A stretch of 61,147 nt of DNA from Candidatus Hodarchaeum mangrovi (GTDB lineage Archaea; Asgardarchaeota; Heimdallarchaeia; Hodarchaeales; Hodarchaeaceae), in the NCBI GenBank assembly GCA_016839515.1, contig JAEOUE010000207.1:1-61147 (forward strand), given 5' to 3'. The position numbers were made by a program, and so were the translations under genes. This document shows positions 20,025-59,632 of this stretch, in pieces (the first letter of the stretch is position 1; each line of letters begins with the position of its first letter). The notes beneath the pieces were generated by a model that was not told the DNA's origin, ran no database searches, and saw only the letters and a program-made list of their open reading frames with translations.

Positions 20025-20096
20025 TCGCCCCGCCCAGATTCGAACTGGGGTCACGAAGCCAAAACTTCGCATGATGGTCCTCTACACTACGGGGCT
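20025..20096 (-). tRNA. tRNA-Gln(TTG), with a 6-nt anticodon loop
   Basis: On the minus strand: acceptor arm AGCCCCG (20096-20090) with CGGGGCG (20032-20026), leaving A1 opposite G72; D arm GTGT...ATCAT; T arm CCCAG-TTCGAAT-CTGGG. The anticodon stem CGAAG/CTTCG encloses only TTTTGG (20064-20059) instead of seven bases. TTG at 20062-20060 is preferred because G follows it and the acceptor resembles archaeal tRNA-Gln. The short loop could be a base-call deletion or real. Confidence 0.7.
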
Positions 20097-47275: not shown

Positions 47276-47377
47276 TGGGCCCACCCGGATTTGAACCGGG
47301 GATCTTTACCTTGCCATCTAAAAAAATGGCATCTCGGTTATCAGCCGAGCGCTTTAACCAGGCTAAGCCATGGGCCC
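47276..47377 (-). tRNA. tRNA-Ile(GAT) with an intron in the variable loop
   Basis: Acceptor GGGCCCA/TGGGCCC, anticodon arm CTCGG-CTGATAA-CCGAG (GAT), T arm CCCGG-TTCAAAT-CCGGG, A73. Between the anticodon stem and the T stem are 32 bases instead of five. Removing about 27 nt (47306-47332), which fold as TGCCAT-TTTTTTAG-ATGGCA, leaves AGATC, a normal variable loop. The intron therefore lies outside the usual 37/38 position. Exact cut sites are uncertain by a few bases. Confidence 0.88.
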
Positions 47378-53445: not shown

Positions 53446-54975
53446 ATGGCAGATCTCGAAAGAATGAATCTAGTGGTCACAGGACATGTTGATCATGGTA
53501 AGTCAACTGGCCTTGGCCATATGTTGTTCTTACTCGGTCAGATTCACGATCCTAAAAAGAAACGACAACCTTGGCGAATTGCCAATAGATATTTTAACGA
53601 AAGTAAAGCCCAAGGAATGGGAAGTTGGTCCTACGCATGGATTCTTGATCCCCTTATGGATGAAAGAGAAAGGGGTCTCACAATTAACATTTCCTTCCAA
53701 GAATTTAAGACCAATAAATATATTTATAATCTCATTGATGCACCAGGGCACAGTGACTTTATTAAAAACATGATTACTGGAGCCTCACAGGCAGATGCTG
53801 CAATTCTTGTTGTTTCAGCAAGAAAAGGAGAATTTGAAGATGGAACGAAGGTTGCTGGAACAGCTTCAGGAAAATATGCTAATGTTATTGGAATGACTAC
53901 CGAACATATGCTATTACTAACCTCTCTTGGAGTTACCAATATCGTTGTGGCAATCAACAAGATGGACGTTGTGGATTGGGATCAGAAGAGATATGAACAA
54001 ATTAAAACTCAAATCCATGCTGTTTTTACACAATTAATGACCGCCCTCCAAATTGAAGGCAAAGAAAGTCGTTTAGAAGCAATAAAATATGTTCCAACAA
54101 GTGGTTTAATAGGAGTCAATCTTCTATCTAAAGAAACAACACTTAAAAACCTAGAAGGACATATCGCAGCAGCTAAATCTGGTGGTGGAGACGCAGAATT
54201 TATTGAATCTCTTGAAAAGGAAGCTGAGGATATTAAAGCTGGATTTGATGGATTATCTTGGTATAAAGGCCCATCTTTGATGGATGCGTTAGATTTACTT
54301 GAGTCTCCAGCTGTTAGGAAGGAAACACTGTCAAAACAACCATTACGTATTCCTATTCAACAAACATTGAACATAGGTGGAGTAGGTACAGTTTTAACAG
54401 GTCGTGTATCAAGTGGTATTTTAAAACCAAATACAGAAATGGTCATTGCACCAACTAAGCAAAGTATAGAGCCCCTGCAAATCTCTGTTAAAACACTCCA
54501 AGAATTTCATAAAGAAATCCCACAAGCATTACCTGGAGACAACATTGGCTTTAATATTAAAACTAAAAATATTGCTGCAAAAGATATTATCCGCGGTGCA
54601 GTTGTAAGCGAACCAAATAATCCCGCAAAAGCACTTCGACCTAATGTAGACGCATTTCTCTCTTTAGTGCTAGTAGTAAGAGGTTTAGGTAAGAAAGGAA
54701 AGAAGAAGGATGAGGTTTGGGGTATTCATGAGAATTACTCACCAGTAGTTCATTGTGGAACAGCTCAAGTCGCATGTAGAGTAACACAGGTTCAAGAAAA
54801 AGATATGTTAAAACAGGGTGATAGAGGCATGATTTGGATGACTCCTCTTAATCCTATGGTTGTTGAACCTTTATCTCAGTCTCCAGCCTTAGGCCGTTTT
54901 GCATTGAGGGATTCAGGAAAAACCGTTGCAGTCGGGGTAGTTCAGAAAATAGAATTCGGGAAATATGCATCTTAG
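53446..54975 (+). CDS. Translation elongation factor EF-1A-type GTPase, 509 aa
   Basis: G1 is GHVDHGKS (13-20), G3 DAPGH (about 98-102), G4 NKMD (about 171-174); ERGLTINISFQEF replaces the usual RGVTID switch segment. EF-Tu domains 2 and 3 follow (GVGTVLTGRVSSGILKP and HCGTAQVACRVTQV...LGRFALRDSGKTVAVGVV). At 509 residues it is longer than typical aEF-1A (about 430), with an insert after G4 (ESRLEA...AAKSGGGDAEF). It should carry aminoacyl-tRNA to the ribosome. Position beside uS7-uS10 is the normal one, but they are on the other strand. Confidence 0.88.
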   Translation: MADLERMNLVVTGHVDHGKSTGLGHMLFLLGQIHDPKKKRQPWRIANRYFNESKAQGMGSWSYAWILDPLMDERERGLTINISFQEFKTNKYIYNLIDAPGHSDFIKNMITGASQADAAILVVSARKGEFEDGTKVAGTASGKYANVIGMTTEHMLLLTSLGVTNIVVAINKMDVVDWDQKRYEQIKTQIHAVFTQLMTALQIEGKESRLEAIKYVPTSGLIGVNLLSKETTLKNLEGHIAAAKSGGGDAEFIESLEKEAEDIKAGFDGLSWYKGPSLMDALDLLESPAVRKETLSKQPLRIPIQQTLNIGGVGTVLTGRVSSGILKPNTEMVIAPTKQSIEPLQISVKTLQEFHKEIPQALPGDNIGFNIKTKNIAAKDIIRGAVVSEPNNPAKALRPNVDAFLSLVLVVRGLGKKGKKKDEVWGIHENYSPVVHCGTAQVACRVTQVQEKDMLKQGDRGMIWMTPLNPMVVEPLSQSPALGRFALRDSGKTVAVGVVQKIEFGKYAS

Positions 54976-55046
54976 ATTGCTTATTCCCACTTTTCTCTCT
55001 TTTTTCTTATTAATTTATAGTGCAATTTTTCTGGTGTCTTCTAGTA

Positions 55047-56378
55047 ATGATAGGTGATAAACCAACTATTTCTTTAATTTGGATAGGTCATGTAGATCAT
55101 GGTAAATCTACTACTTTAGGCCATTTATTGGCACAGATAGGGGTGATTGATCCCCGAACCATCGAAAAACTAAAGGAAGAAGCTATTCAGAATCAGATGG
55201 AATCATGGCAATGGGCTTATGTATTAGACTCACTACCTGAAGAAAAAAAGAGAGGAATTACATCAGATATAGCTTTTTATCCCTTTAAAACGCAAGAAAG
55301 AAATTTTATGCTTATTGATGCACCAGGACACAGAGATTTTGTTAGAAATATGATTAGGGGGGCTGCTCAGGCTGATGCATGTGTTCTTGTCTTAAGTGCT
55401 GTTCCAAATGATTTGAAATCTGGTTTAAAAAAAGGAAAAATAAATGATCCTGGAGGACAAACAAGAGAACATGCAATTTTAGCATCGGTATTAGGTATTG
55501 GGCAGATTATTATAGCAATTAATAAAATGGATCTTGTTAATTATCAGGAAGAAGCATTTAAATTAGCTGTTAAGAGTATTAAGGAATTATTTAGTGAAAT
55601 TCAATCCCCTTGGATGAAGAATTTCGATTCAATACCAATTGTTCCTATTAGTGGTTATTTTGGGGAAAATTTAATAGAAAGCTCAGATAAAATGCCATGG
55701 TACTCAGGACTTACATTGATTGGAGCTTTGAATAGCCTTGAGGGAATGATTCCTAAGCGTGAAGGAATTTCTAGGTTCATAACTTATGATGTTGACGAAC
55801 GTCATGGATTCGGGACTTTCTTAATAGGAAAAACTTTGGGAGCATCTTTTAAGATTGGTGATACTATAACTATTCTTCCTCAGGGAATTAACGATGAAAT
55901 CAAAGATATCTGGGTTCAAGACGAGAAAAGAGAAGAAATAAAACCAGGAGAACATGGATCTATTCTTTTAAAGAGTTTTGATAAGGATGCGCTTGAAGAA
56001 GGCCTTGTATTGGCAACTCAGATGAAAAGTTATCTAAATCCATCAAGTATAAGAGCCCGTTTACTTTTACTCGAAGGAACATTGATACCTGGTAGCTCAG
56101 TGGTTTGTCATTGTGGTGCATCGTATAGTACAGGTCAAATCTCTAAAATCAACCAAATTCTTAAAAGTAATCCAATACATAAAAACCTTCCAAGAGAATT
56201 TGAAGGAAGAATAACAATCGCATTTCCTAATGAGTTGGTACAAGTTGAAATAAAATTAGATACACCAATCGTTATCGAGAAATTCAATGAATTTCCAGAA
56301 CTCGGACGACTTATTTTACGCCATTCTGGACAAACAATCGCTGTTGGTATTGTCCACGATTTAATGTACGAAAAATAG
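55047..56378 (+). CDS. Second EF-1A-family GTPase (EF-1A/Hbs1/eRF3 group)
   Basis: About 443 residues from ATG 55047, which places the first strand (ISLIWIGHVDHGKSTTLGHLL) in its normal spot; a GTG 27 bases earlier is an alternative. G3 is DAPGH, G4 NKMD, and the switch is KKRGITSDIAFYPF. Domain 3 ends LGRLILRHSGQTIAVGIVHDL. It differs from its upstream neighbour throughout, so it is not a recent copy. Archaea often use one aEF-1A for elongation, termination and ribosome rescue; a second gene suggests division of labour. It lies 71 bp downstream, probably cotranscribed. Confidence 0.85.
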   Translation: MIGDKPTISLIWIGHVDHGKSTTLGHLLAQIGVIDPRTIEKLKEEAIQNQMESWQWAYVLDSLPEEKKRGITSDIAFYPFKTQERNFMLIDAPGHRDFVRNMIRGAAQADACVLVLSAVPNDLKSGLKKGKINDPGGQTREHAILASVLGIGQIIIAINKMDLVNYQEEAFKLAVKSIKELFSEIQSPWMKNFDSIPIVPISGYFGENLIESSDKMPWYSGLTLIGALNSLEGMIPKREGISRFITYDVDERHGFGTFLIGKTLGASFKIGDTITILPQGINDEIKDIWVQDEKREEIKPGEHGSILLKSFDKDALEEGLVLATQMKSYLNPSSIRARLLLLEGTLIPGSSVVCHCGASYSTGQISKINQILKSNPIHKNLPREFEGRITIAFPNELVQVEIKLDTPIVIEKFNEFPELGRLILRHSGQTIAVGIVHDLMYEK

Positions 56379-57546: not shown

Positions 57547-57721
57547 CGCCGGGGGAGGGATTTGAACCCTCGAGTACAGGAGTACACTGGCTTTCTATCT
57601 ATAGCTTGAACAATCTATAGACTCAAGGCCAGCGCCGTTCTACAGGGTAATTAAAACCTTAACCCGTCCGCTTGGCTTTCAGTTCAATTTCTTTGTAGAG
57701 GTAGAAATATGATACCCCGGC
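57547..57721 (-). tRNA. tRNA-Ser(TGA) interrupted by three introns
   Basis: Acceptor GCCGGGG (57721-57715) with CCCCGGC and G73; anticodon stem CTGGC (57632-57628) with GCCAG (57591-57587); anticodon TGA at 57625-57623; variable arm GTAC-TCCT-GTAC and T arm GAGGG-TTCAAAT-CCCTC mark a class II serine tRNA. Three insertions are visible: about 36 nt before the D stem (57677-57712, hairpin TTTCT/AGAAA), about 25-28 nt in the D loop (within 57638-57665, hairpin GGGT/ACCC), and 29 nt after position 37 or 38 (57593-57621, hairpin TCTATAG/CTATAGA). Splice points of the first two are approximate. Confidence 0.85.
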
Positions 57722-57751: not shown

Positions 57752-58204
57752 TTAAGTAGTTTTAAAATCGTACATCACAATCGTACCACCAGAGGCAACA
57801 ATAGTAAGGATAATACCAAGGAATAATAAAGTTAATGACGTTCTTATATCATATGCAAATCTTGTAGAGTAATGAATCAGATACAATCCTCCTGTTCCAA
57901 TTCCAAAGAATAAAGCAGCTATTAAAGATTCAACGAGAAATTGCTCACTAGAAGATCGAAAAATGGGAACTAATGCATTCGCTGTTTGACCCATAGGAAG
58001 AGGATTCTCGGCAAGATCATAAATCCCACCAGCTAGTATGAATACCACCGCAAACAAAGTAATGGCTAATAGATATTTATGAGGAGCTTCATATGGTAAC
58101 TCAATTTCAGGGATACGAAAATCAATATTAGGTCTCTTAAAACCTGGAAGCCATGGGATACCTTGAGCTTTTTCGGTTTCTTTATCATTTTGTTTTTTTG
58201 ACAC
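57752..58204 (-). CDS. OSTC/Ost3-Ost6-like oligosaccharyltransferase membrane subunit
   Basis: 150 residues with membrane helices at about 43-63, 88-111 and 122-144. The order and wording match eukaryotic OSTC (DC2) and the membrane part of Ost3/Ost6: FAVVFILAGGIYDLAENPLPMG against [24 protein letters not shown], and EQFLVESLIAALFFGIGTGGLYLI against [23 protein letters not shown]. In eukaryotes this subunit links the glycosylation enzyme STT3A to the Sec61 channel. A thioredoxin domain like that of full Ost3/Ost6 is absent. The 40-residue amino end is cytoplasmic and proline-rich. Confidence 0.82.
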   Translation of the reverse strand: MSKKQNDKETEKAQGIPWLPGFKRPNIDFRIPEIELPYEAPHKYLLAITLFAVVFILAGGIYDLAENPLPMGQTANALVPIFRSSSEQFLVESLIAALFFGIGTGGLYLIHYSTRFAYDIRTSLTLLFLGIILTIVASGGTIVMYDFKTT

Positions 58205-59538: not shown

Positions 59539-59632
59539 TGGACCGACCGGGATTTGAACCCGGGGTATACGGTCACTATGGGGTGAACTCCGCCTTGCGA
59601 AGGTGGCGTGATACCAACTTCACCATCGGCCC
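59539..59632 (-). tRNA. tRNA-Ala(CGC) with an insertion in the variable loop
   Basis: Acceptor GGGCCGA/TCGGTCC with the alanine-specific G3-U70 pair, D arm GTGA-AGTTGGTA-TCAC, anticodon arm CCACC-TTCGCAA-GGCGG (CGC; one A-C mismatch), T arm CCGGG-TTCAAAT-CCCGG, A73. Twenty-six bases separate the anticodon and T stems; about 21 of them (inside 59566-59587, hairpin TCAC-CCCATA-GTGA) are best read as an intron, since alanine tRNAs have a five-base variable loop. Confidence 0.85.

Follow-up and report, generated by a model that had tools for sequence, protein, structure and literature searches.

The window, a 61,147-nucleotide contig (JAEOUE010000207.1) of Candidatus Hodarchaeum mangrovi, carries a tRNA-Ser(UGA) gene whose sequence is interrupted three times (Table 1). 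Read on the minus strand from window position 57721 to 57547, the 175-nucleotide gene begins with GCCGGGGU and ends with CCCCGGCG. These ends pair with each other as a perfect acceptor stem, and the long variable arm and T arm lie within the last 46 nucleotides. The original prediction had proposed a tRNA-Ser(TGA) gene of 175 nucleotides with three insertions at this site, and its coordinates, length, isotype, and number of insertions are all correct, with the minus strand as the coding strand. Because a similar 3′ end of a small protein gene also precedes tRNA-Ser(UGA) in relatives from the same genus, we consider these loci to be orthologous.

Table 1. Features of the tRNA-Ser(UGA) locus (window coordinates).
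Feature	Coordinates	Strand	Remarks
tRNA-Ser(UGA) gene, unspliced	57547..57721	-	175 nt; discriminator G73; CCA not encoded; orthologues in genus
Exon 1, nt 1-8	57714..57721	-	GCCGGGGU
Intron 1, position 8/9	57678..57713	-	36 nt; BHB; shuffle p 0.013
Exon 2, A9 to C20a	57666..57677	-	AGCCAAGCGGAC; same as intron-less relatives
Intron 2, D loop 20a/20b	57640..57665	-	26 nt; BHB; shuffle p 0.012
Exon 3, nt 20b to G37, with anticodon UGA	57622..57639	-	AACGGCGCUGGCCUUGAG
Intron 3, canonical 37/38	57593..57621	-	29 nt; BHB; shuffle p 0.022
Exon 4, A38 to G73, long variable arm and T arm	57547..57592	-	AGCCAGUGUACUCCUGUACUCGAGGGUUCAAAUCCCUCCCCCGGCG; T loop uninterrupted in window gene
150-aa hydrophobic protein gene	57752..58204	-	Directly upstream of tRNA-Ser(UGA)

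Two other regions of the window also merit mention. Two diverged, adjacent genes for EF1A-like GTPases (53446-54975 and 55020-56378, both on the plus strand) lie beside rps7- and rps10-like genes, all named by eye. In addition, a tRNA-Asp/Glu-like gene at 20025-20096 (minus strand) has a good T arm and acceptor stem and an anticodon that cannot be read (ARAGORN reports “tRNA-???”). Its loop is either GUUUUGGC or UUUUGG, and the gene could be either a relic or an atypical tRNA.

Removal of 36, 26, and 29 nucleotides from the 175-nucleotide gene leaves an 84-nucleotide cloverleaf with a UGA anticodon, a long variable arm, and G73, and ARAGORN identifies tRNA-Ser(UGA) across the whole of this 84-mer. 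The locus is a multi-intron tRNA gene, in that it has at least two introns whose complete removal yields a standard tRNA. Before splicing, ARAGORN calls no tRNA in the 175-mer, and the best score with Rfam RF00005 is 17.5 bits, which is below the gathering score of 29. Genes of this kind are overlooked by tRNA finders that are run without bulge-helix-bulge (BHB) splicing. No other tRNA-Ser(UGA) gene, and in particular no intron-less one, was found in this genome, whose tRNA census rests on Rfam and a T-arm pattern, and UCA is the commonest serine codon in the long reading frames of the window (318 of 12,622 codons). The locus looks like an essential gene.

All three junctions exhibit the archaeal BHB layout, wherein two 3-nucleotide bulges are separated by a 4-base-pair helix, and the central helices have three, four, and two of four possible pairs, respectively. 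For intron 1, the outer helix joins G1C2 to G10C11, the central helix sets C3GGG6 against ACUG, the inner helix has 3 base pairs, and the bulges are GU↓A and AA↓A. The central helix of intron 2 pairs GCGG with CUGU (including two G.U pairs), its inner helix is GGU/ACC, and its bulges are AC↓G and AG↓A. For intron 3, the 5-base-pair anticodon stem serves as the outer helix, the inner helix is CUAUAG/CUAUAG (6 base pairs), and the central helix sets CUUG against AUAG. Thus, introns 1 and 3 represent relaxed BHBs. The earlier proposal of a hairpin fold for every insertion is correct in the sense that each contains an intron-internal helix beside the BHB (3, 3, and 6 base pairs, respectively).

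When each intron was shuffled, with its boundaries left free to slide, the BHB scores yielded the P values listed in Table 1, which combine to about 3e-4. Alternative boundaries obtained from an unconstrained BHB scan were dropped, as they either formed no tRNA or did not match the relatives. Folding the entire precursor freely with ViennaRNA does not recover the BHBs of introns 1 and 2, and the canonical introns of the same genome likewise fail to appear in such folds. Pair probabilities for the BHBs are near zero in the window precursor, as they also are for most intron controls from this genome. If the 5′ segment is folded alone, the intron-1 BHB reaches pair probabilities of 0.2-0.6 in five siblings and 0.01 in the window gene and in one further sibling (L038), and the value is near zero in the full-length fold.

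The precursor was compared with 38 genomes (its own included) of the same genus, order, and class. Orthologues are present in ten other genomes of the genus, resulting in 12 copies in the genus altogether, and the BHB layout recurs in 11 homologous copies. By site, the BHB geometry is observed in 8 (8/9), 12 (20a/20b), and 12 (37/38) copies, generally with scores above those of shuffled introns. Introns 2 and 3 are each present in all 12 copies. Intron 1 is missing from four of them (L034b, L039, L041, and L043), and its position is fixed at 8/9 because GCCGGGGUAGCC is uninterrupted in these four genes. A T-loop intron at 59/60 that is absent from the window gene is carried by four copies (L034b, L038, L039, and L043), wherein the central helix is UUCR/NGAA, a bulge reads AA↓, and the T stem forms the outer helix.

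The central helix of intron 1 is CGGG/CCCG, with four of four pairs, in five copies (L035-L037, L040, and L042), and UGGG/UCCG or CGGG/UUCG in two more. In L041, the central helix of intron 2 is GCGG/UCGU instead of GCGG/CUGU, and it remains paired. Covariation in the central helix is weak since the changes there are one-sided, and standard pairs make up 91% of those counted in the D-arm region versus 44-55% for slid partners. Across 11 copies, the mean identity of the spliced exons is 95%, whereas in the same comparison the introns are only 42% (8/9), 64% (20a/20b), 45% (37/38), and 67% (59/60) identical. This difference indicates that selection acts on the spliced product.

Comparisons with the D arms of more distant relatives are independent of BHB folding. 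The sequence GCCAAGCGGACAACGGC, which is the D arm predicted for the spliced window gene, occurs exactly and without interruption in tRNA-Ser(UGA) genes from other families of Heimdallarchaeia (L079, L082, L083, and L088). Similarly, the D arm of L087 is GCCAAGCGGACUACGGC, the spliced form predicted for most siblings. No introns occur in the tRNA-Ser(UGA) genes read from other families of the class, and in one genome of the same order (G013; L145) the D loop of tRNA-Ser(UGA) is ordinary and the only intron lies in the anticodon loop. Intron locations before the D stem and in the D loop, as originally proposed, are therefore backed by the orthologues that lack intron 1 and by the D arms of intron-less relatives, as well as by BHB geometry.

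A different interpretation of the 20a/20b insertion is that it forms an extra hairpin that the mature tRNA would retain as part of an enlarged D arm, such that only the insertions at 8/9 and 37/38 are removed. Its occurrence in all 12 genus copies would fit this possibility, as would the conservation of its ends (GG..CCCUGUA), which exceeds that of any other intron stretch. However, these ends coincide with the BHB elements and the adjoining helix, and the interior diverges and varies in length by 1-2 nucleotides. Moreover, intact D arms of relatives have exactly the sequence predicted for the spliced D arm, and other tRNAs of this genome (Leu-UAA and Pro-UGG) also have D-loop insertions. We consider retention of this hairpin to be very unlikely.

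Still less probable is a pseudogene or relic at this locus, with the true tRNA-Ser(UGA) gene residing in a portion of the genome missed by an assembly that is 91% complete. Although one relative does carry a degenerate tandem copy of the gene (L034a), the exons show full base pairing and hardly vary across 11 genomes, two of which are recorded as single contigs (G004 and G005), and none of the 11 has an intron-less tRNA-Ser(UGA) match. Finally, the possibility that the insertions are chimeric sequence created by binning or misassembly of this metagenome-derived assembly (contamination estimate 6%) is negligible, given that ten other assemblies from the genus have insertions at the same positions in the same gene neighborhood.

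Two genes in the genome match PF01974 (L001, alpha; L002, beta). The 182-amino-acid EndA alpha has its best sequence match to the Aeropyrum pernix EndA alpha (E 4e-43), retains the Tyr, His, and Lys residues, and carries the lysine of the “Crenarchaea-specific loop” (CSL), which aligns to A. pernix K44 (GKPVGIRKPKS aligned to GQPLDVEKPRG). The second protein, of 216 amino acids, has Ser in place of the catalytic His and is most similar to the epsilon2 enzyme of ARMAN-2 (E 1e-24), and it is taken as the EndA beta subunit. A check of the subunit type thus reveals the crenarchaeal arrangement, with separate genes for a catalytic alpha and a beta without the catalytic His. The broad-specificity endonuclease that had been predicted to be necessary for splicing such introns therefore appears to be encoded, in the form of an EndA of the (alpha-beta)2 type that carries the CSL lysine.

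The CSL lysine allows crenarchaeal (alpha-beta)2 enzymes to cut relaxed BHBs (PMC6379350). Compared to the A. pernix (alpha-beta)2 EndA (PDB 3P1Z/3AJV), the predicted enzyme is alike in its catalytic Tyr/His/Lys and in the residue equivalent to K44, but it is an Asgard protein with a divergent beta subunit. Each of the 29 alpha sequences aligned from Heimdallarchaeia (L001, L099-L127) has the same lysine, even in families with intron-less tRNA-Ser(UGA). Thus, the CSL is not confined to Crenarchaeota. RtcB is also present; its match begins at model position 87, near the end of the fetched stretch, and the gene is probably cut by the contig end.

The exon/intron boundaries, the BHB layout, exon conservation versus intron turnover, and the presence of the enzymes can all be read directly from the DNA, and from these we infer that cleavage and ligation occur, and in what order. 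We consider it highly probable that this tRNA-Ser(UGA) gene is functional and that its transcript carries three BHB introns, which would be removed by EndA, with the exons then joined by RtcB. Specifically, a heterotetrameric (alpha-beta)2 EndA with a CSL-type loop would cut both bulges of each BHB, and RtcB would join the exons to produce a serine tRNA that decodes UCA. The intron-1 BHB is built from nucleotides 1-6 and 10-11, which are strands of the acceptor and D stems in the mature tRNA, and therefore it cannot coexist with these two stems. This suggests that intron 1 is probably removed before the acceptor and D stems close. Early removal, perhaps during transcription while the 3′ half of the precursor is still being synthesized, is a reasonable inference.

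Two related genomes are informative regarding how the number of introns might change. A sister species (L038; G004, CP070665.1; L038:1391-1667) has introns at 8/9, 20a/20b, 37/38, and 59/60 in a precursor of 221 nucleotides, which yields a complete tRNA-Ser(UGA) when spliced. This may be the record number of introns for one tRNA gene. Another relative (L034:1070-1500; G007, JAEOTY010000322.1) has tRNA-Ser(UGA) twice in tandem, and the two copies differ in their sets of introns. The first, upstream copy has introns at 8/9, 20a/20b, and 37/38, has no 3′ acceptor strand, and resembles a relic; the other has introns at 20a/20b, 37/38, and 59/60. The four-intron gene resembles the first of these copies upstream of the T arm and the second copy downstream of it. 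This double resemblance suggests that introns could be stacked through recombination between copies.

Given these arrangements, we lean toward the view that tRNA-Ser(UGA) genes of this genus draw on up to four fixed intron sites (8/9, 20a/20b, 37/38, and 59/60), two of which come and go, and that L038 with all four exceeds the “up to three” per tRNA gene given in the literature cited here. By this same view, a BHB formed at 8/9 from acceptor and D-stem strands would compel splicing to follow a set order before the mature fold is reached.

Introns are also common in other tRNA genes of this genome, which is a 348-contig MAG estimated to be 91% complete with 6% contamination. We observed about 26 introns among the 38 tRNA genes found, such that more than half of the genes have introns and half of the introns are non-canonical. 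This intron count is a lower bound, and a few boundaries are approximate (the CAU tRNAs for Ile/iMet and Pro(UGG)). The census, which relied on Rfam and a T-arm pattern and is incomplete, found no tRNA gene for Trp, Tyr, Glu, Gln, Ser(CGA), or Pro(GGG).

T-loop introns at 59/60 reside in the genes for Gly(CCC), Gly(GCC), Phe(GAA), and Asn(GUU) (L032, L130, L131, and L007 (C150:81540-81596)), and the central helix in all four is UUCA/UGAA with four of four pairs. D-loop introns are also present in tRNA-Leu(UAA) and tRNA-Pro(UGG) (L129 and L135), and the former combines a D-loop intron of about 57 nucleotides with an 18-nucleotide anticodon-loop intron. Within the window, the genes for tRNA-Ile(GAU) (47276-47377) and tRNA-Ala(CGC) (59539-59632), both on the minus strand, each have a non-canonical BHB-like intron on the 3′ side of the anticodon stem/variable loop.

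As many as three introns per tRNA gene have been described before (PMC8450103, PMC4033280, PMC4090602), for example in a tRNA-Pro(UGG) gene of Pyrobaculum islandicum with introns at 25/26, 37/38, and 56/57 (PMC4090602), and multi-intron tRNA genes occur in Thermoproteales, Thaumarchaeota, and Caldiarchaeum. Those of Thermoproteales are similar to the window gene in that one gene can hold up to three BHB introns, at canonical as well as non-canonical positions, and in the presence of an (alpha-beta)2 endonuclease. In contrast, the window gene belongs to another phylum and uses other sites, as 8/9 and 20a/20b are not named in PMC4090602 (whose list ends with “etc.”), and a sister species of the window organism has a fourth intron at 59/60. 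The original statement that such introns are mostly known from Thermoproteales is outdated, because they are also on record for Thaumarchaeota and Caldiarchaeum (PMC8450103, PMC3293823) and, within the Asgard archaea, for Atabeyarchaeia and Freyarchaeia (PMC11291895). The latter report, from 2024, describes multi-intron tRNAs in Asgard archaea with frequent non-canonical tRNA introns, as is seen here. However, Atabeyarchaeia and Freyarchaeia are other classes, and their 228 introns in three genomes exceed the density of about 26 introns in 38 genes observed in this genome.

The window gene extends multi-intron tRNA genes to another Asgard lineage. Furthermore, the twelve close copies with differing intron sets provide a ready-made series for the study of how introns are gained, lost, and recombined. 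The Hodarchaeales belong to the archaea that are placed nearest to the eukaryotes. With their dense non-canonical tRNA introns and a CSL endonuclease, they are a group in which to test for a broad-specificity state that preceded the eukaryotic Sen complex.
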